64,000 bases of DNA from Tieghemostelium lacteum (Eukaryota > Evosea > Eumycetozoa > Dictyosteliales > Raperosteliaceae). Every line of letters starts with the position of its first letter. Positions within the stretch are counted from its first letter, which is position 1. The stretch spans positions 930,001 to 994,000 of the forward strand of contig LODT01000037.1 of the NCBI GenBank assembly GCA_001606155.1, given 5' to 3'. The notes under the pieces are model-generated. The model saw nothing but the letters and a program-made list of their open reading frames with translations, searched no databases and was not told the DNA's origin. The translations under genes were made by a program, and so were the position numbers. This document shows, piece after piece, positions 5,054 to 62,954 of the stretch.

Positions 5054-5325
5054 TGCCTCGAGTGATTTAAATATTTTTAAAAATAAATATAAAAGATGAG
5101 GAATAAATTCATAAATAGAATATTTAAATAGTTATTTTTGTGATTAGTGAAATATCAGGGATTCATAGTTTATCTTTTCAAAAATGAAAAATCTGATTCT
5201 GTTGCAAGGATCAAAGAAATTAAATTCAATGAAGAAAAATATCTAATTTAATTTTTTTGAGTTTTGTTGATGGATATTTTTGTTTTAGTTTTTCTCTTAA
5301 TTAAGTTGTTCATTATTCAATATTT

Positions 5326-36855: not shown

Positions 36856-36962
36856 GAATTACGTAATTCATTACTTAAAAAAATTTTTTGGGATTAAAAT
36901 CAAATAAAATGGAACTATCGTGAAATATCACTTAACTTATTCATTTAATATCTTTTTGTTAT

Positions 36963-39529: not shown

Positions 39530-39679
39530 ATTATTTGCAATGGAGTAATATAACGAATAAATCTTTATTTTTCTGTGTTTTTATAAAATTTCAATTCGTT
39601 GAAAATTTAAATATCTTCAATTCGTCTTTATTATAATTACTCTATTTTTACAAAAATTAAAAGACAATTTGATTGAGAA

Positions 39680-40054
39680 GAAGAAATTGAATGTATAATC
39701 AGATCTGAGAGAAGATTGTATGAAGTACAATAGAGCTCTGGTTCTTATGATGATAGATTAGAGGTTTATCAACCTATTGGTACTGAAGATGGTCTGGTGA
39801 AACTGAAGACTCAAATCCAGTCTATGGTTAATTCTGTACACCAGTACAATCATAATTTTATATTTCTAGATCTGGTTTACAAGTATATATTCGACAGAGA
39901 AACAATGTTAAATGAGTTCATTGGTCTGTTGGGTAGATACAGCTCTATGGATACTGCAATGGTTCCATTAATCATCTATATGGAGTCCATTGCTACCACT
40001 TCCAGTGATGAAGCTGAAGTTGAAGATGATGATGATATCATGGTTTGTGATTAA
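39680..40054 (+). pseudogene. Deleted copy of the coiled-coil gene (left arm of inverted duplication)
   Basis: This matches the gene at 60434-62302 from its IECIVRSERR block onward, then jumps from MVPL straight to YMES...DEAEVEDDDD, a loss of about 0.87 kb. The first two exons and the start are absent, the first ~80 bp carry changes that break the frame, and an 85-residue open frame survives from 39797 only by chance of a non-disruptive deletion. It is unlikely to be expressed as a working protein. Confidence 0.85.
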
Positions 40055-41066
40055 TCATCCACACTCTTTAGCTTGGTAGATGTCTCTTTTTGGTATTGAT
40101 GATCTAATTGGTCGTTGTGGTGTCAAATTTGTCTTTAAAGTTTGGTATGTCAAAACTTTGGGGTTCTTTAATTGATTACTACGTTGTCCGATTGGTAGAT
40201 TGGTGTAGTATCGTTTAAGACCCAATGATGTTGACTGTTCACCACATAAACAAGAAAGATTTAAATCTTGGTCTTGGTTCTGTTTAATCCTCTCACTTCC
40301 TCTACTCTCTGGTTCTATATCTTCAAATTGATCATTAAAATAATAATTGAAATAATAATTAAATGTCTTTAACTCATGTAAAATTTATATGTTTAAATAT
40401 CTATGTTTTAACGTAAATTATACACAAGAATCTGTATTTAACTATAGATTGATTGTAAAATAGTTTTAAGATTGTTTCAATTGAATCTTATATTTAATAA
40501 CATGAGTTAAAAGACAATATAATACACTTTACAAAAAATCTATTTTTACATTAATAACCCACAATAAAACAATTAACAATAAAATAATTGATTATGATTT
40601 TTATGATTTTTGATCAGAGTATTTCTGATTTTTTATTTTTTTTCAAAATGAAACAACACACAACACACTTCCTCACAATGATATGATAAATCTTATTCCG
40701 AAGTAGATTTCATTGGATAAATCTAAAATTAACAACGTATAAATCTTGATTACTCAGCTTCGATTTAAATTGTCTCACCATAAATAACACATGTTTACAC
40801 GTGAACTATTTCACCTTTTATAGGAGATCAACGCAGCTGTTGACTTCATTTAGAAGTTCTAATTTTAAATTTCAATCACAATTTAACCTTCAAAGGAATA
40901 AGGAAATTAAAATCGTATAAATTGATGAATGAAATTTACCAAATCAATATCAAAACAACAAATATCAACAAGTACAACAACAACAACAAAAACAAATATC
41001 TACAATTACAATAATATCTTTTTAAATATATCTTTTTAAATATATCTTTTAATAATATCAATAAGA
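40055..41066. promoter_or_regulatory. 1-kb upstream region of the left MRH-type gene
   Basis: Non-coding region shared with the right arm. It holds a CA-rich box (ACAACACACAACACACTT, about 40653-40670), which on the other strand is GTGTGTTGTGTGGGTT in the right arm, a palindromic TTTACACGTGAA near 40793-40805, and short repeats of ATATCTTTTTAAAT just before the gene (one unit more than in the right arm). Confidence 0.5.
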
Positions 41067-41552
41067 ATGTCAGTATTAAAATCATTAATCGTTTTAATTG
41101 CATTGGTAATTTCAAGTATCCAATGTCAAACCTCTATATCAAATTGCACATTTATTGCTGATGGATATCAATATGATTTTTCATCCATTGGATCATACAA
41201 TCCAAATGGTTACTTTTGGAACTTTGGATATGATCAAGGATTTATAAATGTCTGTCAAACTGCATATTCATGTGTTTCTGAAGATGGTGCAACTGGAATG
41301 GCTGGTTGTAAATACTTTGAATCACTTGGTCAAGTTCAATCTGGTGAATTCTCATCAATTTCTCCAGCAGGTACTGGTGCCATTCTTACCTATTATGACA
41401 ACTCATACATGAACTATATCGTCAGAATCAAGTTACTCTGTGCTAAAAACAAGAGAATCCCATCAATAATCTCAAGTGGTATTTCTGCAACCAATTCCCG
41501 TCAATATGAATTCACAATCTCTGGTAAAGGTGCTTGTGGTTATCAAATGTAA
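41067..41552 (+). CDS. Small secreted MRH-type protein (left copy)
   Basis: 161 residues, one exon. Signal peptide (SLIVLIALVISSIQCQ), then an MRH-like (mannose-6-phosphate-receptor homology) pattern: NCTFIADGYQYDFSSIG, WNFGYDQGFINVCQTAYSC, GCKYFESLGQV, GAILTYYDNSYM, VRIKLLCAKNKR, YEFTISGKGACG, with six or more cysteines placed as in MRH/ATG27 domains. There is no membrane anchor, so it is probably secreted or lumenal. The key sugar-binding residues were not verified. It differs from the right-arm copy by two residues (Ile/Leu in TSISNC, Ala/Thr in EDGATG). The 3' flank diverges right after the stop. Confidence 0.75.
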   Translation: MSVLKSLIVLIALVISSIQCQTSISNCTFIADGYQYDFSSIGSYNPNGYFWNFGYDQGFINVCQTAYSCVSEDGATGMAGCKYFESLGQVQSGEFSSISPAGTGAILTYYDNSYMNYIVRIKLLCAKNKRIPSIISSGISATNSRQYEFTISGKGACGYQM

Positions 41553-41561
41553 TTCAATACT

Positions 41562-41888
41562 ATCAAAAAACAGTAATCGATCGAAATTAAATAGTTTTTT
41601 AAATATTTATAATATCTATTTATATAAACAACAGAGTTTGTTGTAAATCCGAATAAATAAACCCCTCAGGTTAAATTAAAAGTAATAAGAAATGAGGAAT
41701 GATAGATTTCACTTAACAATGGTTAAATATTAGTTGTTCCCATTCAGTTTTTGATAACATAATCACAACGAGAAATCAAAATAAATAATATAGGACAATG
41801 TACAATAATTTGAAATATCTTTTAATAGTTTTAATTCTAGTATATTAAAATGTAATTATAATAATACATGTACATAAATTTAATATAT
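41562..41888. other. Intergenic stretch between convergent genes
   Basis: AT-rich 3' flanks of the MRH-type gene (+) and the two-TM coiled-coil gene (-). Nothing recognisable. Confidence 0.4.
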
Positions 41889-42875
41889 TCACCAAAATAA
41901 TCTGAATATCAAATTCCAGAAATCTTTAATTTTTGATATAAATCCTTTGTTTTTGTTGTTGGTGACTACTTGTTGATCTTGATGTGATTGAATGAGTTGT
42001 AATTGTTTTTCAAATTCATATTCTAATCTCTTTTCTTCGTTGTTGTTCAATCTTTGTATGATATCTTTTAAATCCTCATTTTTTTGATTGAGGATTTTAT
42101 TGATTTCTTGGAGTGATTTAATTGTGTGTTGTTGGCTAGTTTGTACTGAATAATAACTATTTGCCATGGATTGATTCTGGTATGAGAAATTGTGATTTAA
42201 TCTAGATATTCTATAATTAATATGGTCTACATCTGCAAATATGTTCAACATGTCAGAGCCTAAACCAATTATGTGTGAAGTTACTGATACCTCTTCCCTT
42301 GCAATTCTAATTTCAAACCAATTTACTAAAAATAACCCAAATAATTGTTTCAAAGAAGGTTTATCATTATCATTTTTTAGTACTGATATCATAAAATTTA
42401 TATTCTTTTCTAATTGATCACAGCCACTGGAACAAAGATCTAAATTTCTACTATAGTGTCTGGATATAAGTACTTATAATTAATATCAAATTTGAGATAA
42501 GTAAATTCAATTGTTTAATACAAACAATTTAATTATATAGTTTCTTCTAATGATATCTAAATCTCTATTAGTAGGATACATTGAATTTACAGCAAGAATA
42601 TAAAGAAAAGTTTCTCTATCTTTTAAAGATAATTTGTTACTGCTACCTGGTGCATGAATATTTAAACAATACATGATTACTAATAAAACCAATAAAAAGG
42701 AAACCATTCCTATTGATACTTTTAAAAAATAAATTTGTTTTCTTTTCATTATTGGTGTATGTTTACGAACTATTGTAATACATGGTCTATGCAGTACTCT
42801 ATTGTCAACAATTAATTGATACTGTGTTGCAAATATAAAACCTAACAGAATAAATAACAATATTATTAATAACAT
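41889..42875 (-). CDS. Two-TM coiled-coil protein (hypothetical)
   Basis: Two exons, 42875-42526 and 42450-41889, give 303 residues in frame; the intron uses GTTTGT...CACTATAG. Two N-terminal hydrophobic helices (MLLIILLFILLGFIFA and VSIGMVSFLLVLLVIMYCL) flank a basic loop. Exon 2 has a coiled coil (QHTIKSLQEINKILNQKNEDLKDIIQRLNNNEEKRLEYEFEKQ has the heptads) and a hydrophobic end (FWNLIFRLFW). I do not recognise the family. It is probably an internal membrane protein. The joining of the two open frames is my inference from splice sites and phase. Confidence 0.55.
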
Positions 42876-43030
42876 TGTATTACTATAGTCATTGGATTTG
42901 ACTTATTCTTTTTCTTCTTCTTCTCCTCTTACTGCCTCTTCTAACAATAAATAAAAATCATTACTTTTTTTGTAAGATTATTCGCACAATAACTATTATT
43001 TGAAAAGTAATATTATTATTATAATATTAT

Positions 43031-43951
43031 TTATTTTTCAAATATCACATTCCAATGAGCAGTTTTCAAACCTGTATTGTATCTTACTACGATTGGAGTC
43101 GTTGAGTATCTTAAAATATTAGTTAAAACATGTTGATTGATTGCAAACTTGTCTGCTAAAACCTCTAAATTATATTTTTTAGGATCCTCTCTGTACAATG
43201 AAAAGAGATTCTCAATCTCTTCAAAACTCAATCTACCTCTATTTAACTTTTCTTTTTGAATTCTTTCTTTAATTTTTGATATTCTACTTGTAACATCCTA
43301 ATCCACATTTTAAATATATAACCAAATTAATAATTGAATAAAAGTACATTAAATTCACAAAGATATACAAACATTAGAATCCATAGCTCTAGAATCAAGA
43401 GTAGAACCAGAAGGTGGAGGCTGATGATGATAATGTTGATCAACAGGAATGAAATTCTCAGAGAGTTTGTTGTAGAATTTAACTTGTTCTTCGTCTTTGT
43501 ATCTTGGATCAATTTGAGAGAGTTCAGAGAGATTTTGAACCTTTTCTTTATACTTTTTCTTTAAGTTTTCTTCTATTCTCTTTTCCATCTGTTCAAATGA
43601 TTCAAAATCTTCATCTCTCAGAAACTCTTTTTGAGATTCCTGTAGTTCATAGTTATTCTTAATTTTATATAACATATCGTCTAGTGATTTTTCATTGTTG
43701 TCTAATGTCACTTCTTGTTCTTTTTCTTCAGGTTCATCATATTCCTCATCTACATCATCGTAATATTCTTCGTCTTTTGGTAAATATACACCTAAATCTT
43801 CCAATTCTTTAGATAACTTATATTTTGAAGGAGAAGGTATATCTGTACTATTCTTACTATTATTAGTTGTTAAATAGCTTCTCCTATAATTTTTCTGTGG
43901 AAAAACATTGTATATCTGTCTAAATAAATATCTAGAAGTTGATCTTATCAT
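43031..43951 (-). CDS. Neugrin/Rrg9-like mitochondrial protein
   Basis: Two exons, 43951-43373 and 43297-43031, phase 0, 281 residues. I start at the ATG at 43951 because MIRSTSRYLFRQIYNVFPQK reads as a mitochondrial targeting peptide, and because the alternative ATG at 44008 would leave only 11 bp to the divergent ISY1 start. The middle is acidic. The C-terminal block RLSFEEIENLFSLYREDPKKYNLEVLADKF...VLTNILRYS matches the neugrin/Rrg9 pattern (turn-helix with PxxW/Y, LAxxF, IxRIL). Those proteins support mitochondrial ribosome or genome maintenance. The match is by eye. Confidence 0.5.
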
Positions 43952-44019
43952 AAGTGTGTTTTGAATAAAAATTTCAATAAAATGCCTCACAAATTCATTA
44001 TTTTTCATTTATTTACAAA

Positions 44020-44904
44020 ATGGCAAGAAATGAAGAAAAAGCACAATCTATGCTGAATAGATTCCTTAGATTGAAAGAAGGAGAAAATAAATATTCAGAA
44101 AAGAGACCATACCTGTCAAGTGAATGTGATTCACTGTCTGATGCTGATAAATGGAGAAGACAAATACTAAGAGAAATCACAAAGAATATACAAGATATAC
44201 AAAGTCGTAAGTACTACACCATTACTTTAATGACATACAATATTTGTAGAATATATAGACTAATTGCGTTATACTTTAAAATAGCAACATTAGGAGAACA
44301 TAAAACTAGAGATTTAAATGATCATATTAATAAACTAATGAGAGAAAAACATCATTGGGAAAAGAGGATAATTGAATTGGGTGGTCCAAATTATATAAAT
44401 TCAGCAGCAAGAGTATTTGATGCCAATGGTAAGGAACCATTAGGTGATGGTCTCTATAAATATTATGGTGAGGCTAGAAATCTACCAGGTGTTAAAGAAC
44501 TATATGATAAACCAAAGCAAGAGAAATTAAAGAAATCTAAAGTTGAGTTATCAATGCCTGTTGACGCTGATTATTATGGTTATGGTGATGATGATTATAG
44601 ATTAGCTGAAATTGAAAAACCTTTTGAAGAAGAGGCTATAAACAGATGTGTAGAACAATGGAAACTAGAACAGAAAGAAAAGTATCAGATAAAAGGTCAA
44701 AGACAACCTAATAGGAACAACACAAAAGACACTAATGAAATTAGTGATAGTATGGATATAGATAGTAACATTAATAATAGTAGTAGCAGTAGTAGTGGCA
44801 CTAAAATATTTAAATCACATGTACCATTACCCTCTAAAGAAGAGTTAAATCAAATCATTTTAGAAAAGAAAAAAGAAGAATTGAGAAAGAAATATATAGG
44901 TTAG
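44020..44904 (+). CDS. isy1: ISY1 pre-mRNA splicing factor
   Basis: MARNEEKAQSMLNRF, RRPYLSSECDSL, DKWRRQILREITKNIQDIQ, HKTRDLNDHINKLMREKHHWEKRIIELGGPNY and ADYYGYGDDDY match ISY1 proteins closely. A 78-nt intron at 44207-44284 (GTAAGT...AAATAG) lies inside the open frame; removing it gives IQSPTLGEHKTRDLND, which fits the family, and a 268-residue protein. The intron has no stop and is a multiple of three, so a retained form would carry 26 extra residues. ISY1 belongs to the NineTeen-related part of the spliceosome. Confidence 0.93.
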   Translation: MARNEEKAQSMLNRFLRLKEGENKYSEKRPYLSSECDSLSDADKWRRQILREITKNIQDIQSRKYYTITLMTYNICRIYRLIALYFKIATLGEHKTRDLNDHINKLMREKHHWEKRIIELGGPNYINSAARVFDANGKEPLGDGLYKYYGEARNLPGVKELYDKPKQEKLKKSKVELSMPVDADYYGYGDDDYRLAEIEKPFEEEAINRCVEQWKLEQKEKYQIKGQRQPNRNNTKDTNEISDSMDIDSNINNSSSSSSGTKIFKSHVPLPSKEELNQIILEKKKEELRKKYIG

Positions 44905-44960
44905 ATATATTAGATATATTAGAATAAATCTCAGTATCTAGATTTATGAAGATGATGGTT

Positions 44961-46712
44961 TTAAGAATATTTAATTAGATTTTTAATTAAGATTTTGTTG
45001 ATTGAGGAATTTTCATCAAAGTCTCTGGTACACAGGGAATAAAGTGTACATTTAGATACAGCAATTTCGAATGATTCAAGAATAGATCTATCTAGAACAG
45101 GGTTCTTTGCGGAATTTCCAACAATGGGTATCTTTAGGACTACTAGTTGAGGTACAAGTCGGAGAATCTCAGTTAAATACTGAACAAAGATGGGATAAGT
45201 CTCTCTGATACCTTTACCATTCCTAGTGATATCTAAACTTGTTAAGTGGGTATTGGATATTAGTGATTTAGTCAATAGTTGGATATCTAATTCTCTGATG
45301 GAAACACACTGGAATGAGGTAATAGTTGGATGATCCAACTTTAGGAAATTACCAACAAAATCCATTGGAGTGTTTTCACAATTTATAACAAACTTGGTCA
45401 GTGAGTTATTAGATTGTAATGAACCAAGTATTTGGTTGAAATTCTGGAATTGAGTGGAAAACAAAAAGGACTCTAAATAGAGTTCTTTGAGTTTTGGTAA
45501 ATTCATTTCCAGAATTTTGTTATAAATATCAATAGATTTATCTTCCATTGTAATTCTAAGACATTTCAATTGACTAAAGTGATATCTAGTAAGAGGTTCC
45601 ATTAGAATTTCAAGAGATAGATTTGGAAGATACACTTGCAATTCTGTTAATGATGAGGGTGATTTCCACAAGTAGTGAATATCAAGTTTCTTTTGTTGGT
45701 TAGAAAGTAAATTGATATTAAAAACCTTCAATTTTGAATTTGTAATGCCTAGATTGGGGAGGTTATCCACATCAGGTTCACTAATGAAATCCAAAAATGA
45801 CAATGTCAATTCCTCTAGAGATAATTGATTATTATTAACCAAATCAATGATGAATTTCTTTTCTACCTTGTCTTGGAAGTTCTTGAGTGTTAAACGACTG
45901 ACATTGGAGTGTTGACTTAATGAATATGCCTCAATAAAGTGTTTTAAGCAACCCAATAGTTGAGGAGGTACAACACCTCTTTGAAGAAATGTTACATGAT
46001 CCAAAAACACTCTAGAAATTGTAGAATGATCTTCTAGAACTTTCACAATATCACCAAGTTCCACTGAGACTCTGTTCAACATCAATTCAGTCATTTGGGA
46101 AAACCTTGATACTTTTTGAAAATTACCCAATACAAAAGGTTCACTTGTTCTGTCCATAGTGGCAATTGTCAATGATTTTAGAATATCGTTAGCCTGTGTA
46201 GTTTTGTACCCTTCAAAATAGTCATTGACATCCAACTGCTTCTCAGGACGTTTCTTTGTATTTTGGTACCAAACAATCAGTGAATTCAATTTTGGACATT
46301 TTACAAGTAATTGTAAATCACTTTTAAAAGTTTGATAGTTACAATTGTTCATTGTAATCCCAGTTAGATTCTTAAAACCACCAATAATCTCCAAAGAACC
46401 ACCTACAGAATCAAATGTAAAATCACAAACTGATAGCAATGGTACATTTTTTACAAACTCTGCGAAACCAAACAATTTCAAATTGTAAAATGGTATAAGT
46501 TTTTCTAATTTCTTATAGAAACTAGACTTTCTTTCTGTGTTTATTGTGAAAGATTGTATAGACAATTTTTCTTTTAAGAAAATCTGTCTCCATTCTTTAC
46601 AAACCAGTGATATATTATTAACACATTGTGTCAATAATGCTGTATTGTCTTCACAAAAACATAATAGCTCTGATAAAATTTGAATAGTTATATAGTTTTG
46701 TAGTTTATTCAT
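44961..46712 (-). CDS. F-box-like / leucine-rich repeat protein
   Basis: 583 residues from the ATG at 46712. The frame extends 20 codons upstream through a poly-Phe run made by a T-tract, which I take as untranslated. The N-terminus (LQNYITIQILSELLCF...NNISLVCKEWRQIF) looks like an F-box or F-box-like motif, and the rest carries irregular leucine-rich repeats (FKNLTGITMNNC, LPKLKELYLESFLF, LKCLRITMEDKS, NTHLTSLDITRNG). It may be a substrate adaptor of an SCF ubiquitin ligase. The family is expanded in dictyostelids. Partner unknown. Confidence 0.65.
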   Translation of the reverse strand: MNKLQNYITIQILSELLCFCEDNTALLTQCVNNISLVCKEWRQIFLKEKLSIQSFTINTERKSSFYKKLEKLIPFYNLKLFGFAEFVKNVPLLSVCDFTFDSVGGSLEIIGGFKNLTGITMNNCNYQTFKSDLQLLVKCPKLNSLIVWYQNTKKRPEKQLDVNDYFEGYKTTQANDILKSLTIATMDRTSEPFVLGNFQKVSRFSQMTELMLNRVSVELGDIVKVLEDHSTISRVFLDHVTFLQRGVVPPQLLGCLKHFIEAYSLSQHSNVSRLTLKNFQDKVEKKFIIDLVNNNQLSLEELTLSFLDFISEPDVDNLPNLGITNSKLKVFNINLLSNQQKKLDIHYLWKSPSSLTELQVYLPNLSLEILMEPLTRYHFSQLKCLRITMEDKSIDIYNKILEMNLPKLKELYLESFLFSTQFQNFNQILGSLQSNNSLTKFVINCENTPMDFVGNFLKLDHPTITSFQCVSIRELDIQLLTKSLISNTHLTSLDITRNGKGIRETYPIFVQYLTEILRLVPQLVVLKIPIVGNSAKNPVLDRSILESFEIAVSKCTLYSLCTRDFDENSSINKILIKNLIKYS

Positions 46713-46853
46713 ATGAACTACAAACCTATAACTAAAAAAAAAAAAAAAACTTACATATTTATCAAAACACATATTAGATTTTTATTACGTGTTGGGAAAA
46801 TTCAAAGAAAGTAATTTTTATGATTATTACATGAAATGAAAATAGTTTATTAA

Positions 46854-47918
46854 TTAGATTCCATTAAATATCTCTCTATAGAGGGTTATTTCTGGGATGG
46901 AAAGACCCATTATTTTGTAGTGATCTACCAGTAGGGAATAAGAGTAATGGTTGAATTGGTGATTGGTTTGTAGACCTAGTTTATGACAATAGGACTGACA
47001 TTTATGAGTTCTAAAGAAATGTTGAATTGTTGGAATAGGTCTATTAAGAAACCTATCAAAATATAGATGATTGTTATTTATAAGTGTAGGATTGGATAGA
47101 ATGTTTTGTCGATGTACCATTAGACCTTGAATATTAATTGGTATGAAAAGTCCATTTGACACCTCATAGACAAAATGAGTGAAAGCATTGACAATCTCAT
47201 CATCAAATTGTGCTAGAGTTCCATAGATTTTCTCATTTATCCAAGGTTCTATAATTAGTATCACTGGTTCGTTTTGGTATGGAAACTCTCTTTTAAGTAG
47301 CATTAAATGTGGTTCGAGAAACTCTAGTTGGAAACTATGTTTCTTCACCAAACCAATCTGTTGTATCTTGTCAAATAGCTCTGCAAAGTCTCTGCAAATG
47401 TATTGTGATTCCATAGTCTGAAGTATGTTGTATTTGGTGTAATTGTTCAATAATTTAGCTACAAATTCACAATCTGGGGCACCACCAATACCTTTAACAA
47501 TAATTTTAAATACCCTTTTAGTGGGAGTTGTAATTTCATTGGTCTGACCATCAAAAGGTACAAACACAATATTTCTCTTCTGACAAGTCCATTTTCCTTC
47601 ATATCTATTGAAATTTGAAATTTCAGCAATTTCTAATTGGTTATATGTAACATTCCATTCTGATGGATATTGTAAATCATTAGTTTCATTCTTAACATTT
47701 TCACAAAAATCATGATTAGATGGCACTATGGTTGGTTGTTTTAGTTGTTGTAGTTGCTCTATTTGTTGTTCATAATTTATTTTATTATTACTTATACTAA
47801 TATTACTATTAAATGGATATTCAAAATCTAAGAATTCTCCATGTTGATTATTATGACTTTCTGAATTATCTGATTTAAAAAAAATATTTATATAATTTTT
47901 AATAAATTCAAATGTCAT
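46854..47918 (-). CDS. Alpha-kinase-like protein, probably a pseudokinase
   Basis: 354 residues from ATG 47918; the longer frame begins at TTG. The C-terminal ~250 residues follow the alpha-kinase (MHCK/EF2K) layout: KRVFKIIVKG for the ATP-lysine strand, ILIIEPWINEKIYG, AFTHFVYEVSNGLFIPINIQGLM, ILSNPTLI and a zinc-binding end FFRTHKCQSYCHKLGL. In active members the two loops read DIQG and TDPxI; here both aspartates are asparagine (NIQG, SNPTL). Phosphotransfer is therefore unlikely, while the zinc core is kept. An Asn/Gln-rich N-terminus precedes it. It could bind myosin heavy chain or another partner of its family as a scaffold. Confidence 0.65.
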   Translation of the reverse strand: MTFEFIKNYINIFFKSDNSESHNNQHGEFLDFEYPFNSNISISNNKINYEQQIEQLQQLKQPTIVPSNHDFCENVKNETNDLQYPSEWNVTYNQLEIAEISNFNRYEGKWTCQKRNIVFVPFDGQTNEITTPTKRVFKIIVKGIGGAPDCEFVAKLLNNYTKYNILQTMESQYICRDFAELFDKIQQIGLVKKHSFQLEFLEPHLMLLKREFPYQNEPVILIIEPWINEKIYGTLAQFDDEIVNAFTHFVYEVSNGLFIPINIQGLMVHRQNILSNPTLINNNHLYFDRFLNRPIPTIQHFFRTHKCQSYCHKLGLQTNHQFNHYSYSLLVDHYKIMGLSIPEITLYREIFNGI

Positions 47919-48237
47919 AATGATTAACAAAATCAATAATGAATCAAAAAAATAATTTGGAACATTTTTAATTAAATTTCATTTTATAATTGTGTAAAAT
48001 CTGACAATGAAATTAAATTTTGAGAACTTCGAGATTTTAAAAGTGTGTAGATTTTTTTAAATTATTTTTTATTTATAAATTTAAATATTGGATGCACAAT
48101 AATTTTTATTAAAAATGGTGAAAATGAAAGATATTAGTATCAACAATATACATTGATTACTCATCACTATTGTGACTCTTTTTTTTATTTTTTATTTTAT
48201 ATGAAATGAAGGACACCTTTAGTGACTAAATAGTTAG
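47919..48237. other. Divergent intergenic stretch
   Basis: 319 bp of AT-rich DNA between the alpha-kinase-like gene (-) and a short secreted open frame (+). No motif is evident. Confidence 0.35.
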
Positions 48238-48417
48238 ATGAAGTTATATATACAATTAATTATATTGATTGTAATTGGTGTTGCTTTGGCTGAAGAGCAA
48301 TGTTTAGTTTATATATCAAATAGTGTAAGAGAATCTCCTAGTGATATAGCCCAATTTAAAAATATCAGATCTGCAATCAGATCATGTATCTATAAGAATG
48401 CATCCGATATATCATGA
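48238..48417 (+). pseudogene. Detached 5' part of a beta-helix surface protein gene
   Basis: An open frame of 59 residues: signal peptide (IQLIILIVIGVALAEEQ) then CLVYISNSVRESPSDIAQFKNIR and SCIYKNASDIS, the usual N-cap of dictyostelid beta-helix surface proteins, followed by a stop. The sequence that should come next (KFSSETFNFEYSDRFDLTDG) appears 0.78 kb downstream at about 49198. It looks like the front of a gene interrupted by an inserted segment. It may still be translated as a small secreted peptide. Confidence 0.5.
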
Positions 48418-48533
48418 GACAATTTACCAAAACGTGAGAAGGTTTTTTTTTTTTTTTTTAAAAGTCACAATTTTGAAACAAAAAAAATTTAATTGAAATT
48501 TCATTATCAAAAATATCTGTCCGGGACATTTCT

Positions 48534-49796
48534 ATGTCAAATAATACAGTATCATCAAATAATATAAATACGAATCATATTAGTCGCCAAAAAAAACATA
48601 GAATCGCAAAATTAGAAAAATGGAATCAATTCAAAACAGCATTCAAGAAATTATCCAACAAAACTCAGTATTTGAAGTCAAATTTACTGAAATTAGAGAG
48701 CACCTTGACAGATACAAAAATATCTTCTCTCAACTTAGAGAGAATGTTAATGGAGTGTTTAGAAGCAATGGAGTTAGAAAAGTGCCATTGGAGCTCAGAG
48801 ATGCAGTCAACCTCTATACCTCAAACATCAACTCTCTTAAATATAACTTCATGTCCAAAAAAACTCTTCATGGAGAAATTGAGCTCAACATCAAAAGAGA
48901 AGAAGAAGGTAATAGAGAACAATCTGAGGAGCTTAGAAGAGAAGAAGAGGACATTATTAGAAGAAGAGAAGATATTGGAAAACGACGAGAGGACATTAGA
49001 AAACAAAGAGAAGATATTGGAAAACGACGAGAGGACATTAGAAAAAAAAGAGAACTTCTTGAAAGAGAAGAGGAGAACATTAGAAAACAAAGAGAGCAAC
49101 TTGAGAGAGAGGAAAAACTATTTGAGAGCGGAGGACCATGTGAGAAAAGAGATGATGAACCAAATAGAGATAATGGTTTTTCCCCAATTATATATGAAAT
49201 TTAGTAGTGAAACTTTTAATTTTGAATATAGTGATAGATTTGATTTGACTGATGGATTTCAATTGACATTGGAAGGCGCAACCGAAGGTACTGTTCTAAA
49301 TTTAAGTAATCTTGAACAACCATTTATCAAGGCAATAGATCAATCAGTAAATGTAACCATCAAAGATATTACATTTAAAAACATAATAGACACAGCTATA
49401 GTTTTTATAGATGGCTATAACAAAGAAAATAATATTAAATTAAATTTAGATAGAGTTGTAGTATTCAATTATATTTATTCAGCTAATACTGACTCATTGG
49501 TAATATCTAATACAACATTTACAGATAGTCATGGTGGTATAATCATTCAAAGTATTAAAAGCAAAATAACAATTTCTGATGTTACAATTTCAAATAACAA
49601 AGACTTTCTATTAGTGCATTGCACTTCTAGTGATGTTTTCGTTGGAAATCTAAATACTTGTGAAAGTACCGCAACTAATCTTGATGAAATTATCTTCTAT
49701 TATGGATGTAGTATTGAGTCATCAAAAGGTCACTTGAATCCACCAACTATCCAGCTCGAGCAAGAATCCAACATTAATGAAATTATAGATGATTGA
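48534..49796 (+). CDS. Coiled-coil / beta-helix hybrid open frame
   Basis: 420 residues. Residues 1-220 form a coiled coil rich in Lys/Glu, including a repeated EKILENDERTLENK unit. From about residue 222 the text changes to beta-helix (FNFEYSDRFDL, VTIKDITFKNIIDTAI, LVISNTTFTDSHGG, ITISDVTISNN) with no secretion signal ahead of it. The C-terminus has no membrane helix. The hybrid looks accidental: a coiled-coil piece has been fused in frame to the back of a gene whose front lies at 48238-48417. Whether the hybrid is translated is unknown. Confidence 0.45.
   Translation: MSNNTVSSNNINTNHISRQKKHRIAKLEKWNQFKTAFKKLSNKTQYLKSNLLKLESTLTDTKISSLNLERMLMECLEAMELEKCHWSSEMQSTSIPQTSTLLNITSCPKKLFMEKLSSTSKEKKKVIENNLRSLEEKKRTLLEEEKILENDERTLENKEKILENDERTLEKKENFLKEKRRTLENKESNLRERKNYLRAEDHVRKEMMNQIEIMVFPQLYMKFSSETFNFEYSDRFDLTDGFQLTLEGATEGTVLNLSNLEQPFIKAIDQSVNVTIKDITFKNIIDTAIVFIDGYNKENNIKLNLDRVVVFNYIYSANTDSLVISNTTFTDSHGGIIIQSIKSKITISDVTISNNKDFLLVHCTSSDVFVGNLNTCESTATNLDEIIFYYGCSIESSKGHLNPPTIQLEQESNINEIIDD
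48620..49204 (+). CDS. Alternative-frame coiled-coil open frame, 194 residues
   Basis: It shares 585 bp with the hybrid frame above in another reading frame. The N-terminus (MESIQNSIQEIIQQNSVF then KFTEIREHLDRYKNIF) has good amphipathic spacing, and the rest is the repeated REDIGKRREDIRKQ unit. It stops a few bases after the point where beta-helix sequence begins. I cannot decide which of the two frames was the original gene of the inserted segment; purine-rich repeats stay open in several frames without selection. Confidence 0.3.
   Translation: MESIQNSIQEIIQQNSVFEVKFTEIREHLDRYKNIFSQLRENVNGVFRSNGVRKVPLELRDAVNLYTSNINSLKYNFMSKKTLHGEIELNIKREEEGNREQSEELRREEEDIIRRREDIGKRREDIRKQREDIGKRREDIRKKRELLEREEENIRKQREQLEREEKLFESGGPCEKRDDEPNRDNGFSPIIYEI
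48966..49049 (+). repeat. Two tandem 42-bp units, open in two frames
   Basis: The unit begins GAGAAGATATTGGAAAACGA and occurs twice in direct succession, with two base changes near the end of the second. 42 bp is 14 codons, so both frames repeat as peptide units. Related degenerate units flank it on both sides. Confidence 0.9.
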
Positions 49797-49924
49797 TAGA
49801 GGTACTTTTATGTTCTACTAGTACTTCTATTATTTTATTTACTATCTACTTCAATCACTTAAAAGAATGTTAATTAATACAATAAACAAGTTTTCTATTT
49901 AAAATAAATTATCAAGTTTTACGT

Positions 49925-52900: not shown

Positions 52901-54117
52901 TAACCCATAAGGAAAATAATAAGTCAGGGGATTGCCAAGTACTCTAGACACCAAAATTATACCAAATAATTGTTGATTTGGTATAGTTACTGTAAAATCT
53001 ATATATGGTATTGAATAATTTTGGTTACCAATCAACTTATAGGTAGTAGGTGGTGGTACTGTTCCTTTTGCAGGAATTGTATAGCTCATATCAGTTAGCA
53101 GTGACGCAGTGTTTCCAGTTGCATATATATAACCTAATAAAGATTGTTGTACAGATGTTGGTAAACCATAGAATTGTCCAATATAAGTAATCGATTGTCC
53201 AAATCCACCATAAACAGGATTCATTTGTAATGTACTCAAAGTAGCGCTTAATTTTCCTAAAACCTTAGTATTATTTCCGACATTATTAACCCTAATGACA
53301 AAACAATTAAAGTTATCATATTGCGTATAAGATATCATTGTGGGTACAGTAACTGTGTTTTCTATATCAAAGCTCATTAATACCAAGATGTCATTTTGTT
53401 GTTTTAATATATATATATTTACCATCTATTTCAACTTTTAATTTAAATGAAATAACTTCACTATACATATTAGTACGAATGGTATATTGACCACCAGTAT
53501 CATTATAAGGGTAATTGTATACCCATGGGTATAATAACTTTGGTTGAGGGTAATAGTAATCAGCACCACCATGCAACAATTGGTTAGAGTCAGATTGTAT
53601 AATGTATCCATAATAATAAGAATTCAATTTCAGTGCTAATACACCTTGTTTGTCACTTATTAATTTTCTATTACATTGATAAATTATATCGTAGTTTCCA
53701 GTATATGCAACTTGAGGATTTTCTAAAAATACAAAGATATTAATATAATTGATAGATCAGAGTTTTAAATTTTGATTAACCATTACTTTTACATTCAATA
53801 GCTGTCCAATTATAAAAGTGATCTATGTTATTCTGGTCTGTTACAGTAAAGGAAACATATTGACCTACAGATCTTGTAAACTGAGCAATTACATAATACC
53901 TATTTCCTAAATTAATTTTTTCATTCAAGAATCCATTGCTTATGGTCATATCTTTAAATTCCTTTGAAAAGATGAAATCAAAATTGATTTCACAACCTCC
54001 TGCTCCATTTAAAAATACTCTCGGTTTAGTAAACTCTAGTAGAATATCATCTGTAGTCTGTCCAATTACTAACTGTATAATAACAAATACACATAACCCT
54101 ATATATAGTGTATTCAT
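49925..54117 (-). CDS. ComC-like EGF/IPT surface protein, paralogue A
   Basis: Five exon blocks rebuilt by eye: 54117-53781, 53722-53423, 53361-51688 and 51630-49925 (four exons), giving 1338 residues. Signal peptide (YIGLCVFVIIQLVIGQ); long beta-rich ectodomain; an IPT/TIG-like segment (GSFAIYGRGFGSDENRV); one EGF module (CSGNGVCIISGQQASCQCNQPWVGDDC); a ComC-type beta domain; one transmembrane helix (IAGIVIGCVAFVTIVVAAISY) and a short tail. The last intron (51631-51687, 57 nt) has no stop and a length divisible by three, so it sits unnoticed in the open frame; the paralogue proves it. Same architecture as the gene at 5.3-9.6 kb. Confidence 0.8.
50380..50810 (-). repeat. Near-identical tract shared with 54805-55220
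   Basis: In the ComC-type domain the two paralogues differ at only a few bases over about 0.4 kb, while both sides of the tract, including the ectodomain and the tail, differ heavily. This pattern is typical of gene conversion between tandem copies. Confidence 0.8.
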
Positions 54118-54333
54118 AATTATTAAAATGATTAAAAAACCAAATAGTAAATGATTGGCTTCTTTTCACGAGAAATGAAAAAACATATCACAAAAAAATT
54201 TTGAAATTTCAAGTAACCAAACACAAGACTTGGGGTATTTATAAAAATCCCAATTTTATTGTCTTTTGACAATAATGTCATTTTGTGAACATAAACTTAT
54301 GAAAACATAATGTGGGTTGATTAAATAAATTAT

Positions 54334-57300
54334 TTAATTATTTATATTCTGTAATTTTTGATTAAATTTCTTTAACATTTTGCTATGTTGTTTCTTTTTG
54401 TAGATGAAATAGGTCGTTGCTGTAGTAGCAATTACTGCAAATGCAATACAACCTATTACAATACCTGCAATTTTGGTTTGTGAAAGACCTTCTTTTTTCG
54501 ATGATTTGCAGAGTGAACTTTCAGTTGAAGATGATACTGGTTCAGCGTTAATTAGAATAGAGAAATCTGGATCAAGTGTAGCATTATTTTTGAAATTTGG
54601 AATGTGGATAGATACAATGGTACTTGATAGATCATTAGATTGTTCAAGTGGTTCAATGGTATTGCTAATTACTCTATTTCTACCATCTATTACAGCTCTT
54701 TTGATAAATCTTCCATAGAAACTGTGGTTATCTAATTCCAGTGTGATAAAGTCATTTTCAAATACAACACCTTGTTTCTGAATTGAACATGAATCGTCAT
54801 TGTCTGAAGCTATTGAGACAAGGAATTGAATATCCATTGTATTGGTTGATTTTTCAAATTGATATGGAGATAATTCAATTCTATATTTTATAGATGATGG
54901 TGTCATTTGTAGGGTTTGATCGGCAAATGTGATATTGTGATACTCATCAAACCATTCAATGCTGACATTGACTAATGTATTGGTATTATATACTGGATGT
55001 GTGATATTAGTGATATATTGATAGACTTTGGATTCAGGTGTACTTATATCCTTATATAGCCAACTCTTGAATTTATATTCATGTTGTAAAGTTTGGTCTA
55101 ATTGAACCTCTCTTAAAGATACAATACTGACTAGAGTGGTATAGAATATATCCTCACCAGTTGGTGGTTTGAAATCAATTGTTGAATTTGGTTCAGTTGG
55201 GTCTATAGTTGGTTTTGGTAATATAAATATCTTATAAGAACAATCTACACCAGCATATGGCTGATTACATTGACAACTCGCTTGTTGTCCTGATATTATA
55301 CAAGCACCATTTCCAGAGCATTCCACAGGCGATCCTGGGCACATAACAGTTACACTAGTCTGGGGTACTGGTGTACCTGTAATAACATGAACATTAGAAA
55401 GCTTAGAATCAACAATCACTGTGATTTCCAAACTGCTTGATTTTGGTGGAGATATAGAACCAATTCTTAAATATAAATTACTGAATATATTAAAAGTTGA
55501 TGAAGTGTAATTGGTAACTGTGCTGCCATCTTTAATAGACACCAATACATTACTACCATAAAACTCTTTACCATAAATTGCCAAAGGTCCACCACTGGGG
55601 TTATATTCAGTAGTTGTTTCAATAATAGGATTATCAGACACCATGGTTGTGGTGACTATAGAGTTCAAAGTACCAGCCTCCATAATTTTACCAAATGGAT
55701 ATCCTTGAATGTTCATTGCAAGGTCAACAAGGCCATAAATAGATACACCAAATCCGTCAGGGTACCCAAACATATAAGGTACTTTTATAGTTGTATTATA
55801 GACAGCTGTTGTCTCTGTAGTAATATTACTATTAATCATATTAGCTGGTTGTTTTACTAAAATTTTACTGCTAATAGTCTCCAAATATATCCAAGGTGAA
55901 TGTCTAGTTGATATACCAAAAGGATCTTGAGATTCAAAATATACAACTAAATCTCTATTCATTGAAGTTACATCCAATTCATTGGTTGATAATTGGAAAT
56001 TTGCCATTTGTGGTCCTTGACTATCAAAATTTGTGTCTATGAATATAAAGTGGTGTTAGTAAGAGTTATTTCTAAAGAGTATTAGAATAATAGGAGTTAT
56101 ACTTACTTTGACATGTAACTTGAATGATTGTGGATTGGAAATTAGGAAACATATGGAATGGGTTGGGGAGATATGGACTATTGGGTTTGGTTGGTTGGTA
56201 AGATGTAGAGGAATAGTGACCGTAGATATCTCTAGTGGTGAGTTCTTTGATAAAGTAATTTTGGGCAATACATTTAGATGGTGTAACTATAAAACTAACG
56301 TTGGTTGAAAAAGAGGCTGTTGGACTATCAAAATTGTATTGATATCTACTACCAGTTGGATCAATGTTACTACCAATAGTTACATTAAATGATTCTATTC
56401 CATTCATATCTTGTATATTTAATGTATAGTAGATTTCAACATTAGCAACTGAAACAAGTACATTAGCTGATGGATTTAGACTATATGATATAACATAAGG
56501 ACCATGTTCATCTGCATTTTGGGAATAGACAGCAAGAGATGCATTCAAACCTACCAATGTTGAAAATGTTGATGGATCATATTCTCTACCATCTGCCATA
56601 AATATATAATCCAAATTACCAGTAAATAGTTTTGGTGGTATATAGAAATCTACTTTAAACATTTGTTTTGATTCATCCCATTTCATAATGTCATATGGTC
56701 TCTCCTCTACATTTTCATTACCCATCTGTATAGCAACCTCATAGGTTGAAATTAACTTGAACCCAAATAATCTCTTTTTATCTGGTGATGGGTAGTGTAA
56801 ATACAATGTATTCCATGTACCATTAGTGGATATATCAATATTATTCTTTTCAAAATACATTTTATCTATAGTTCTTAAATCAAAGAATTCTATATATGTA
56901 TACATTAAATTAGTAACCTTGATATTTATATAAACTAACTATATACAAACCTTGTGGAAAAGCATATAAAAGTTTGGTATTTAGAGTGTTTGTAACAGTA
57001 GCTTTATCACTAATGAATAATGTATCTATTCTAGAGGCCATTAGGTTAAATATCTTTTCAAAAGTACCATTAGTGGAAGTACCCAAAACTAAATCCATTG
57101 AAGTCATTTCACCAGAAAATGGACTAAATCTAATAGATTGTATACCAGATATATCATCACTTGCTGTAATTCTAACAAGAACTTGAGTGGTATTCTCTAA
57201 TATAATATATTCAATACTAGAGAACCTAGGAGCTGTCAAGTCTAGTGTAACAGTCAACGAAGTTGAAACAGTAGATGTACCAATAGTTGCTTGTACTGTA

Positions 57301-58607
57301 TTGTCTTTACCAAATTTGGAAATTGGCCATGTAATTATATATTTCAAAGATGTCATACTTCCACTTTGGTATCCATAAGGATACATTTTCAATGGATTTT
57401 TAAGTGTAGCCATCTCCATAGTCACAGTTGATAATTGCAAATTTGGTGTAACATCAGCAGTAGCAGTACAATACCAAAGTGAATATGTATTGGTACAACT
57501 AAATGACACCAATGTTGTATCAAGTATAGCAGTTATAGCAGGAATAGAATATGAAAATGAATGTAAAAGTACTGGTGTACTTCCAGTTGCGTAAATATTC
57601 ACATCAAATGGTCCCTGCACAGAGGCAGTGGGTATACCGTATGCATAACCCATTAAAGATACTCTTTGAGTATTACCACTAATTGGAAATATTTGTAGAT
57701 TATATATACCAGTAGCACCCATATTAACATATCCAACAACTTTACTAGAATTTCCTATATACAGTACTGCCAAAGTAAACATTCTTAATGTAGGTTCATA
57801 ACCAAAGCTCCCCCCTTCGCTATCTATATAAGGTAGTGTTGAATAAACTATTTTAAATTGGTCAAAAAATTATTCTTTAAAATAATAATAAATAGTCTAC
57901 ATACCTGGAACATTCATTTGTAAACCAAATGTCTGAGTTGATGTAGACAAGTCATATGTTGGGGTTGGATAAGGATAATTGTTTTTTAGATATAAAAAGT
58001 ATAGTGATGGTTTAACATAGTTGAAATTATAACCTCCATTTTTAACCGTTAGAATTTGGGTACCATTATCTGTCATTCCAAATCCCAAATATATTGAATT
58101 TAAACCTATAGATGGCATATATTCATAATCTGTAAACATTTTTCTAGAAAATGGGTATATAGTATTATAAGGTAACTCATACACTAGTGGTGATGGGTTT
58201 GCTATTATTTAGATTAGAATTGATATATATATATTTATGTAAGATTGGGTAAATATGTTTATATTACCTTGACAAACTATATCTCTCATTTCAATTGGAT
58301 AATTTACAAAGTTTTGATCTCTAATAGTAAAGCTAACAAATTGACCTACACTAAGTGTAAATTTGGTGTACAAAAATTTATTAGGAGGCATGCTATAGGT
58401 AGTAGATGTTCCAGACATTATAATTGATACAGCTGATTCGTTAAGAAGCCATTCCATTTCAACAATGCAATTGCCTGACGAATCTACAGAAATGCCTGGT
58501 ACTGATTTCTTTAAAATCAATACTTGTCCATTGATAACATTATATATCTGTATATAAATAAATATAAATAGAAATAAAAGTTTACTTGTTGGCATTGCTT
58601 GTAACAT
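54334..58607 (-). CDS. ComC-like EGF/IPT surface protein, paralogue B
   Basis: Five exons, 58607-58268, 58201-57905, 57847-56951, 56889-56107 and 56036-54334, give 1339 residues, one more than paralogue A. Same order: signal peptide (LLFLFIFIYIQIYNVINGQ), beta-rich ectodomain, IPT/TIG-like segment (GPLAIYGKEFYGSNVLV), EGF (CSGNGACIISGQQASCQCNQPYAGVDC), ComC-type domain, transmembrane helix (IAGIVIGCIAFAVIATTATTYF). An alternative acceptor at 57817 for exon 3 would also keep frame. Tandem with paralogue A in the same direction, 216 bp apart. Family role: surface or matrix recognition in development. Confidence 0.8.
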
Positions 58608-58931
58608 TGCACTGTGCTAATGACACAATAAAATTTTAAAATTATGATACATTTAGTTTTCAGACATAATAAACGAATGTCTCTGGATATTTCTGTTGAT
58701 TTTTTTTTTTTAAGTGAAATCTTGAAAATATCGAAGAAATATCTACTTTAAATTAATTAATAACGGCAAGGAATAAGATCACATAACGATTGATTTTCCC
58801 ATGCTTGCAAAGATTAAAAAATTTTTTTATTTGATAAACTTATAAATTAAAACGCGTTTTATTTTAATGATACAAATCGATTTTGTATTTGGTGAGAATA
58901 TTCGAACATATATAAAATTAAGAGTTTGGAA
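58608..58931. other. Intergenic stretch at the edge of the right arm
   Basis: Carries the promoter of paralogue B and the 3' flank of the right MRH-type gene. The inverted-arm similarity ends here, near 58923. Nothing else is seen. Confidence 0.4.
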
Positions 58932-59417
58932 TTACATTTGATAACCACAAGCACCTTTACCAGAGATTGTGAATTCATATTGACGGGAGTTGGTTGCAGA
59001 AATACCACTTGAGATTATTGATGGGATTCTCTTGTTTTTAGCACAGAGTAATTTGATTCTGACAATATAGTTCATGTATGAGTTGTCATAATAGGTAAGA
59101 ATGGCACCAGTACCTGCTGGAGAAATTGATGAGAATTCACCAGATTGAACTTGACCAAGTGATTCAAAGTATTTACAACCAGCCATTCCAGTTGTACCAT
59201 CTTCAGAAACACATGAATATGCAGTTTGACAGACATTTATAAATCCTTGATCATATCCAAAGTTCCAAAAGTAACCATTTGGATTGTATGATCCAATGGA
59301 TGAGAAATCATATTGATATCCATCAGCAATAAATGTGCAATTTGATAGAGAGGTTTGACATTGGATACTTGAAATTACCAATGCAATTAAAACGATTAAT
59401 GATTTTAATACTGACAT
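58932..59417 (-). CDS. Small secreted MRH-type protein (right copy)
   Basis: 161 residues with the same signal peptide and cysteine pattern as the left copy, differing at two positions (TSLSNC, EDGTTG). Both copies are intact, which suggests that both are used or that the duplication is very young. The 5' flank is shared to beyond 60 kb; a GT-rich box lies about 390 bp upstream at 59801-59816. Confidence 0.75.
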   Translation of the reverse strand: MSVLKSLIVLIALVISSIQCQTSLSNCTFIADGYQYDFSSIGSYNPNGYFWNFGYDQGFINVCQTAYSCVSEDGTTGMAGCKYFESLGQVQSGEFSSISPAGTGAILTYYDNSYMNYIVRIKLLCAKNKRIPSIISSGISATNSRQYEFTISGKGACGYQM

Positions 59418-60144
59418 TCTTATTGATATTATTAAAAGATATATTTAAAAAGATATTATTGTAATTGTAGATATTAGTTTTTGTTGTTGTTGTTGTACTT
59501 GTTGATATTTGTTGTTTTGATATTGATTTGGTAAATTTCATTCATCAATTTATACGATTTTAATTTCCTTATTCCTTTGAAGGTTAAATTGTGATTGAAA
59601 TTTAAAATTAGAACTTCTAAATGAAGTCAACAGCTGCGTTGATCTCCTATAAAAGGTGAAATAGTTCACGTGTAAACATGTGTTATTTATGGTGAGACAA
59701 TTTAAATCGAAGCTGAGTAATCAAGATTTATACGTTGTTAATTTTAGATTTATCCAATGAAATCTACTTCGGAATAAGATTTATCATTTCATTGGAGGAA
59801 GTGTGTTGTGTGGGTTGCTTCATTGTAAAAAAAAAATAAAAAATCAGAAATACTCTGATCAAAAATCATAAAAATCATAATCAATTATTTTATTGTTAAT
59901 TGTTTTATTGTGGGTTATTAATGTAAAAATAGATTTTTTGTAAAGTGTATTATATTGTCTTTTAACTCATGTTATTAAATATAAGATTCAATTGAAACAA
60001 TCTTAAAACTATTTTACAATCAATCTATAGTTAAATACAGATTCCTAGGATATATTTAAGTTAAAACAGATAATAAGATATTTAAACATATAAATTTTAC
60101 ATGAGTTAAAGACATTTAATTTTTATTTCAATTATTATTTTAAT
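59418..60144. promoter_or_regulatory. Upstream region of the right MRH-type gene
   Basis: Non-coding and shared with the left arm. Features: CAA/GTT-rich stretch just before the gene, TTCACGTGTAAA palindrome-like site near 59665-59678, and GTGTGTTGTGTGGGTT at 59802-59817, similar to GBF-type boxes. Confidence 0.4.
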
Positions 60145-60420
60145 GATCAATTTGAAGATATAGAACCAGAGAGTAGAGGAAGTGAGAGGATTAAACAGAA
60201 CCAAGACCAAGATTTAAATCTTTCTTGTTTATGTGGTGAACAGTCAACATCATTGGGTCTTAAACGATACTACACCAATATACCAATCGGACAACGTAGT
60301 AATCAATTAAAGAACCCCAAAGTTTTGACATACCAAACTTTAAAGACAAATTTGACACCACAACGACCAATTAGATCAACAAGAAAGACCAATACCAAAA
60401 AGAGACATCTACCAAGCTAA
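60145..60420 (+). CDS. Possible terminal exon, ~91 residues, convergent with the coiled-coil gene
   Basis: An open frame reading DQFEDIEPESRGSERI..., with LSCLCGEQSTSLGLKRYY and a basic end (RPIRSTRKTNTKKRHLPS), stopping 13 bp before the stop of the opposite gene. It is less AT-rich than its flanks and looks coding, but no in-frame ATG exists; it stays open upstream to about 60097. The left-arm copy has a 10-bp length change near the end that shifts frame. It could be the last exon of a lost gene. No family is recognised. Confidence 0.35.
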   Translation, partial: DQFEDIEPESRGSERIKQNQDQDLNLSCLCGEQSTSLGLKRYYTNIPIGQRSNQLKNPKVLTYQTLKTNLTPQRPIRSTRKTNTKKRHLPS

Positions 60421-60433
60421 AGAGTGTGGATGA

Positions 60434-62302
60434 TTAATCACAAACCATCATATCATCATCATCCTCAACTTCAGCTTCATCACTGGAACTGGTAGTAATG
60501 GACTCCATATAGCTGATTAACCAATCTCTAGCATCCATGAACTTTCTAGAGTAGGAAACCAGGCCACAGTTGACCAGAGACTGAAGCTTACTTGGATCAA
60601 CTTCACCTTTTTTTGGCAGGTCTTGAATACGTTTAAAAGCACGCTTGAGCTTCTTGTAGCCTCTTTGAGCTTCATCACCATAGAACTCTGAACCAAACAA
60701 TGCATCCAGTTTCTCTACGATGGCAACTTGTTCACTGATGAACTTGTTAACTTGGAGAGCTAGACAGATCTTTATAGAGATCTCTTGGCACTTGGACAGC
60801 TTCTCCTGGAGCATTGATAAAGTTTCTTCATCAGATAAACCATCAAATACACCCCAGTGTAAGTTATTTACAAAGTCATCCAAGTCAGCGAAAAACAATT
60901 GGAAGTCTTCTCTGGTGGTCTGACCTCTGATGTAGTCTGGAAGGAGGTTCTCAAACGCCATAGTAAAATCAGAGAACTTTACATATCTACATTTGGCAAA
61001 CAGTTGGTTGTAGCTAACCATAAGCTCATCAATGCCAATAGCTTTCATTCTGGTTAAGAATGCCATTCTCTTGATGATGTTGTCTGTACTCTTTTCGTAT
61101 TTGGCGTACAGAGACTCCAATTCATCGTAGGCAACTTCAAGACGGCTCTGGATGGATAACTTGAGACGGAAGAGTTCACCATCATTAGTCTCCAGATCGC
61201 TGAGTTTCTTGAGTGTCTCAGCCTTGTTTCTTAATTTCTTCTGGTAACTTTCCATTTCTCTATAGAACTTTTCAGACAGTGGAGAGTTCTCACCTTTACA
61301 AGCTCTGAAGACAATTGAGAGATCATTGCAGATTCCAAAGAGCTTATCCTGACAGACCATGACAACAATGTCTCTAAGTAATGGAACCATTGCAGTATCC
61401 ATAGAGCTGTATCTACCCAACAGACCAATGAGCTCATTCAACATTGTTTCTCTATCGAATATATACTTGTAAACCAGATCTAGAAATATAAAATTATGAT
61501 TGTACTGGTGTACAGAATTAACCATAGACTGGATTTGAGTCTTCAGTTTCACCAGACCATCTTCAGTACCAATAGGTTGATAAACCTCTAATCTATCATC
61601 ATAAGACCAGAGCTCTACTTTTACCTCATCCAATCTTCTTTCAGATCTGACTATACATTCAATTTCTTCTTCTTCTTTTTTAACTTGTTGTTGTGGTAGA
61701 ATCTCTTGAGGTTCTTCCAAATCAATAATTGAAAGTTCATTAAATTTATAAATAAGTGAACCTATATCTTCACTTAGTTGTTTCAGAACCCTGCATATCT
61801 GTTTATTTTTAATATATAGATCATCTAGAAGATCTGATATATCTTTTTTAATCTATAGATTTAAGAAAAAGAAAATGGATTAGAAAAAAGAGATAAAAAT
61901 AGAATAATAGTTAGATATATATAGAATAATAGTTAGATATAATATATATATGTATAGTAACTTACTTGATCAGAACCAGAGTCCAGATCTGGAAGAACAA
62001 TCATGTCATGACTATCCCAAATATCTTTAATCTTTAAATTTACTCTTTCAGAGAAAACTGAGAGATCTTTTGAACAACATTCTTTGTATAAAGTATCTCT
62101 GTTCTTCATATACTGATGGTAAAGTTTACATAATTTTTTATATAGAATCTAGATATAGAAAAAATATAGAATAAAAGAATAGGGAGAAGATTTTAATAAT
62201 TAATATCGTTCCACAAAATATGGAAATAGTAATACGTTTAATTTTAATAAATACTTTAATAGATTTACATTCTAAAGTTGTAGTATTAATTTCGGTACTC
62301 AT
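60434..62302 (-). CDS. Coiled-coil protein (hypothetical), intact copy
   Basis: Three exons, 62302-62255, 62148-61966 and 61852-60434, all phase 0, give 549 residues. Only helices are visible: heptad-rich stretches (DISDLLDDLYIKNKQICRVLKQL, long helix EKFYREMESYQKKLRNKAETLKKL has the spacing), repeated Leu/Lys/Glu segments, and an acidic end (SSSDEAEVEDDDDMMVCD). No membrane helix or signal is seen, so it is probably cytosolic. I do not recognise the family. The short first exon MSTEINTTTLECKSIK is inferred from ATG, donor GTATTT and phase. Confidence 0.65.
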
Positions 62303-62576
62303 AGAATTTTAAATACTAAGTAGATAGAAAAAACAGAGTATAATAATAATAATAAAAGTAATTCAATTTGTTCTCATATTGTAACAAGGTTTTACAAAAA
62401 AATTTCTCAACCATAGTACATATGATTTTTAAAACCCTCCGGTTCACTAATTTAACATTTTTTTCAAATCTTGAGGTATTTCTAAACTTATGCAAATAAT
62501 AGTTGTTGACCTATATATGCTCGAAATTGGTGAATAATACATTATATAGGAAAAGTTGTTTGATACTTGAATTAGC

Positions 62577-62890: not shown

Positions 62891-62954
62891 TTTAAAATAT
62901 TGTGAAATGTGCAAAGTCAAAAAAAAAAAAAATATTTTAATCAGTTTTTTTCAT

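Follow-up and report, generated by a model that had tools for sequence, protein, structure and literature searches.

How did two long, near-identical stretches of DNA come to face each other across some 17 kb of the Tieghemostelium lacteum genome? These stretches, here the left and right arms, lie in a window of 64,000 nt (positions 930001-994000 of contig LODT01000037.1, which we call C31), and each carries a gene for the same 161-amino-acid (161-aa) protein, one of a family with further members in the genome that we searched (23,333,832 bases in 43 contigs). We favour, with moderate confidence, an origin in which DNA was copied from right to left into a pre-existing left paralogue of the 161-aa gene, rather than plain insertion of a duplicate.

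Two facing arms of unequal length

Self-BLAST of the window returned the facing arms as two blocks, one pairing 39968-41561 with 60520-58923 (96.2% identity over 1614 columns) and the other pairing 39676-39970 with 61673-61379 (96.6%, 296 columns). The best minus-strand self-match scored 2628 bits versus a maximum of 40.1 bits in 5 dinucleotide shuffles of the window, and the arms are therefore not a product of chance. Two long and highly similar copies on opposite strands, the hallmark of inverted segmental duplication, are thus present at 39676..41561 (+) and 58923..61673 (-). This bears out the sequence-only reading, which had described near-identical facing arms including about 1 kb of non-coding DNA. 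It had also placed the inner ends correctly (41561 and 58923), but the outer ends fall at 39676 and 61673, not at 39680 and 61690. The arms are unequal in size, 861 bp of the right arm being missing from the left (with TTA at either end of the missing stretch in the alignment), and are otherwise in register.

Each arm contains an intact 161-aa open reading frame (ORF; left 41067..41552, +; right 58932..59417, -), about 1 kb of non-coding DNA (left 40058..41066, +; right 59418..60433, -) and part of a gene for a 428-aa protein. Over the aligned part the arms differ by 32 substitutions in 1860 sites, plus gaps. These substitutions are distributed over the remnant of the 428-aa gene (13/381), the non-coding DNA (8/502 and 5/491, that is 13 in 993 aligned sites) and the 161-aa coding sequence (CDS; 6/486), in which the 6 nt differences change 2 aa (nonsynonymous divergence, dN, 0.005; synonymous divergence, dS, 0.039). 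An assembly artefact is unlikely as the source of the arms because 32 substitutions and the missing 861 bp tell them apart and, if the genome searched is the published T. lacteum (formerly Dictyostelium lacteum) assembly, because a fosmid-end map and primer walking went into it: the publication describes 23.4 Mb in 54 gap-free contigs, built from 454 reads at 29-fold coverage, the ends of fosmids with 32.5-kb inserts, and primer walking (PMC4931340). The duplication had been called recent, which is apt on an evolutionary scale only, since 13 substitutions in 993 non-coding sites put the last identity of the copies ~2.65e8 generations back, if the D. discoideum mutation rate of 2.47e-11 per site per generation (PMC7466956) applies.

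The left arm as the probable derived copy

Similarity ends abruptly beyond the arms, at a GAA run on the outer side and, on the inner side, a few bases after the 161-aa stop codon, where the homology shared by the family also ends. The right arm holds most of the 428-aa ORF (60434..61720, -, from the ORF list and paralogue comparison; open frame 472 aa), which lies ~1 kb from the 161-aa ORF and has no Pfam match at 0.001. Its remnant in the left arm (39676..40057, +) is cut on the 5' side, lacks the internal 861 bp and is interrupted in frame by one TGA and one TAG, the gene being open only in the right copy. A paralogue of the 428-aa gene on contig C24 aligns with the right locus to 62179, past the arm end at 61673, which argues that the right gene runs on naturally and that the left piece is cut. 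As to the inner side, two further 161-aa genes are found among ComC-like genes on the same strand at C31:1075-1084k, and at C31:1081k a ComC-like N-terminal match begins ~515 bp past the stop codon of the second of them; the window repeats this order, a ComC-like gene with an inferred first ORF 325 bp past the stop coming next on the strand of the right 161-aa gene. On the basis of the C24 match past the outer end and of this recurring gene order, the right locus looks native on both sides. The right arm would then be the source and the left arm the derived copy, whose outer flank is unrelated sequence joined at a GAA-rich junction without extended homology.

The C24 contig itself holds relatives of the 428-aa gene at two loci ~144 kb apart (L044, C24:247000-253000, and L045, C24:390500-397500), with nearly identical 142-aa and 139-aa ORFs upstream that represent another recent duplication.

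While the outer flank of the derived copy is unrelated sequence, its inner flank, the 3' flank of the left 161-aa gene (41553..41642, +), resembles the corresponding flanks of three other C31 members of the family (T1, T2 and D911). We summed the alignment scores of this flank against those of the three members in three alignment modes and at six lengths (uncorrected), with 70 sequences downstream of ORF stops, taken from the window and 13 further loci, as controls. Too-short flanks, exact repeats and flanks sharing their first 40 nt with a named family member were dropped; the set excludes five family members only, such that the flanks of members on contigs C19 and C23 may be inside it. At 75 and 90 nt the score of the left flank was reached by 0/70 controls in all three modes and by 0-2 of 200 shuffles, and at 60 and 110 nt by 0-4 of 70 controls. 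The left and right 3' flanks are weakly alike at 110 nt (2-4 of 70 controls) and not at most other lengths. We read the likeness of the left flank to the three family flanks as moderate support for a gene of the 161-aa type having stood at the left site beforehand, the 3' end of which would have survived. With a left 3' flank resembling that of an older family member, the word duplication probably does not describe the event completely.

A proposed copying into an older gene and its rivals

The course of events that we favour begins with a left site that probably held an older 161-type paralogue. Right-locus DNA, from within the 428-aa gene across the intergenic kilobase to the 161-aa gene, would have been copied onto it in inverted orientation. 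The 161-aa CDS being common to both, the copy would have met the older sequence at the 3' end of that CDS or close to it, so that the left gene would have kept its own 3' flank; the outer end of the copy would have been joined at the GAA-rich junction, where extended homology is lacking. A possible anchor for such copying is the final 54 nt of the 161-aa CDS, identical in the left and right copies, T1 and T2. We infer, and did not observe, the prior left paralogue, the right-to-left direction and the mechanism, which would be copying anchored by homology at one end, of the kind known from break-induced replication or ectopic gene conversion. The locus shares with these forms of concerted evolution the near-identical CDS next to unlike 3' flanks (dS 0.039 in the CDS alongside the unlike flanks, within one genome), but differs from them in that 1.4 kb of non-homologous upstream DNA came along, so that the copying would be one-ended and not a tract inside shared sequence. 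The same contrast between a near-identical CDS and hardly alignable 3' flanks is seen in T1 and T2, a direct pair at C31:1079k/1081k (CDS 6/486 different, upstream 17/351 and 27/274).

Several results weigh against this origin. The signal of the left flank fades with length, being reached by 3, 6 and 0 of the 70 controls at 130 nt and by 16, 10 and 6 at 160 nt, and also at 60 nt in local mode 4/70 controls reach it. A smaller test with 60 controls (window and 13 loci, filtered by the same rules) gave 3/60 in local mode, and pairwise flank scores against 23 control flanks within the window were not decisive. The right flank is not family-like: 25-35 of 70 controls attain its score at 75-90 nt, and 6/70 do so where it performs best (semiglobal, 110 nt). 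This is compatible with a native origin, however, because the flanks of the C19 and C23 members are also poorly family-like: 27/60 controls reach the former in semiglobal and 4/60 in local mode, and 46 and 48/60 reach the latter. At synonymous codons the identity of the CDS tail stands out nominally at most (Fisher P 0.04 for T1, 0.02 for T2 and 0.35 for D911, each the best of three cuts and uncorrected) and may be a product of constraint. Finally, the clustering of the arm differences vanishes when those lying within 12 nt of each other are counted as one (P 0.31). The arms thus give no separate sign of conversion tracts, and the patchy tracts of identity typical of ectopic gene conversion were not found within them.

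The main rival is a plain inverted segmental duplication: 2.75 kb of the right locus would have gone into a left site unrelated to it, with decay and the loss of 861 bp following later, and the flank would be family-like by chance. Such a duplication is possible, if less probable to us than copying into a paralogue. A single event would account for both the arms and the truncated 428-aa remnant, and the layout, with a copy in opposite orientation 17 kb off and a neighbour gene cut short, is that of dispersed duplications of this kind. A plain duplication also sits well with a flank signal that is short and fades at 130-160 nt. Moreover, an inverted pair of the same 161-aa family on C19 has an analogous structure. 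Its arms (L043, C19:851500-860500, at 2122-3104 and 5126-6107, ~980 bp each) lie head to head with a spacer of ~2 kb, are 97.9% identical over 984 columns and continue through the 3' flank, and the minus-copy arm ends in a 32-residue fragment of a neighbouring gene; next to the plus copy this gene is whole, a 283-aa ORF matching CfaA_B_C. On the other hand, a plain duplication requires that the breakpoint within a few bases of the stop codon be chance and that the left flank, which 0/70 controls reach at 75 and 90 nt, resemble family 3' flanks by chance, unlike what a paste into an unrelated site would leave.

An alternative history, in which a duplication was followed by inversion of the middle through the arms and the inner flanks were thereby exchanged, strikes us as unlikely. 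It draws on a crossover-like pattern, with the native 5' side of the 428-aa gene at the right outer flank and a family-like 161-aa 3' flank at the left inner one. Yet the ComC-like gene after the right 161-aa gene, placed as at C31:1081k, makes the right inner flank look native, and a right side that is native on both flanks is not what duplication and subsequent inversion through the arms predict. That the arms are copies of a mobile element is barely credible, although there are two copies with different flanks: the longest word shared between an arm end and the reverse complement of the other, within 30 nt, is 7 nt (left) or 4 nt (right), the boundaries carry no target-site duplication, the arm ORFs have no transposase-like Pfam match and the other matches in the genome (16 matches) cover parts of the unit only. 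The 30-nt flanks of the left arm do have an 8-nt word in common, which is not at the arm ends and is matched in length by only 1.3% of 300 random pairs. With neither terminal inverted repeat nor target-site duplication, we rejected the mobile element.

Returning to copying from right to left, an extended form of it would have the secreted, MRH-like 161-aa family both spread and kept homogeneous by recurrent inverted copying anchored in the CDS, with the C31 and C19 pairs arising independently, a broken part of an adjacent gene being carried along in each, and the C31 middle still inverting in nature; to this combination we give very little credence. The titles and abstract beginnings that we retrieved on inverted duplication or gene conversion in Dictyostelium, on genes duplicated in inverted orientation and on T. 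lacteum contained no account of this locus.

The middle, the protein family and neighbouring repeats

Facing arms of such length and similarity could recombine in principle. The middle between them (41562..58922, 17.4 kb, from self-BLAST and the ORF list) may hence be able to invert through the arms, facing homologous arms being a feature of recombination-invertible segments, but nothing that we found indicates that it does. The locus departs from known invertible segments between inverted repeats in that the assembly displays a single orientation, that housekeeping-type genes lie in the middle and that no recombinase-type gene was recognised among the ORFs scanned with Pfam. Two ComC-like genes, as previously proposed, are indeed present in the middle according to Pfam (ComC_SSD, DUF7034, DUF7035 and DUF7743 being the domains in window proteins). 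ComC belongs to the dictyostelids. Gene 1 (49925..54117, -) consists of a 1166-aa ORF (49925-53425) and an inferred upstream 113-aa ORF (53776-54117), and gene 2 (54334..58607, -) of several ORFs (54334-56007, 56072-56905, 56910-57782 and an inferred one at 58209-58607), the gaps between which may be introns or damage. The description of the middle as a block of surface-protein genes fits these two genes only in part of the interval, which also holds an Isy1-like splicing-factor gene (44020..44904, +; PF06246, E 1.7e-72) and an alpha-kinase gene (46854..47936, -; PF02816, E 2.8e-19); another middle ORF had F-box and leucine-rich-repeat scores, all sub-threshold. A split beta-helix gene had also been proposed there and could not be confirmed: a single 420-aa ORF (48534-49796, +) has a sub-threshold Beta_helix match (E 0.00068), and tblastn at E 1e-3 detected no second piece of it in the window. 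A stronger beta-helix ORF, itself just sub-threshold, lies outside the middle (35215-36855, -). Also outside it, the ORF at 37833-39146 (-) scores marginally as DNase II (23.5 bits against a cut-off of 23) and is fused in frame to charged low-complexity sequence.

The 161-aa protein has a hydrophobic N terminus that, judged by eye, is a predicted signal peptide. It matches 10 places in the genome, and the other members on the same contig differ from the right copy at 72-85 of 483-486 nt. The family is weakly MRH-like, with CIMR/MRH (PF00878) matches in 3/10 members, two on C2 (E 0.0038 and 0.0003) and one on C23 (5.3e-05). It differs from a bona fide MRH or CIMR lectin-like family in that only the C23 member, 1/10, passes the curated CIMR score (23.8 bits versus 22.5) and that neither of the window proteins matches Pfam, even at E 10. 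A single-sequence AlphaFold model of the 161-aa protein was unusable (mean pLDDT, the predicted local distance difference test, 33.1; predicted template-modelling score, pTM, 0.20).

A second inverted pair encloses the arms. Its left member (36875..37251, -) overlaps a 125-aa ORF (36963-37340) and its right member (62572..62895, +) contains indels, frame stops and a 67-bp near-perfect palindrome (62656-62722), only one half of which is present in the left counterpart. This outer pair differs by 19 substitutions over 265 aligned sites, with 161 positions in gaps; it is more diverged than the arms and may be older or may be decaying faster. The palindrome is what a small fold-back synthesis would leave, and its position beside the right arm recalls fold-back and template-switch inverted duplications as described in three reports (PMC10622511, PMC11724301, PMC2621351), from which the window differs by its far larger spacer of 17 kb; to link fold-back to the big arms would be speculation. 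Further palindromes of 75-112 bp occur near duplicated genes (L041:4195-4269, L044:5427-5501 and L045:4334-4445), bringing those with a palindrome to 4/9 sequences scanned, window included, a count that stands without comparison to the genome background. Next to the outer pair, a 94-bp stretch (62907-63000) recurs at C31:1698584 with 98% identity and in parts on C43, C15, C9, C2 and C33, and is a small dispersed repeat.

The event in the window looks to be of an ordinary and known kind, namely gene duplication and copying between relatives, with a mildly interesting mechanism. If the middle did invert, it would constitute a natural switch around ComC-like genes, an idea that the present data leave unsupported. 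The value of the locus lies in giving a legible small-scale example of how a compact social-amoeba genome gains lineage-specific gene copies: one secreted-protein family has two facing pairs, one arm of each pair contains a truncated neighbour, and these point to the direction of copying.

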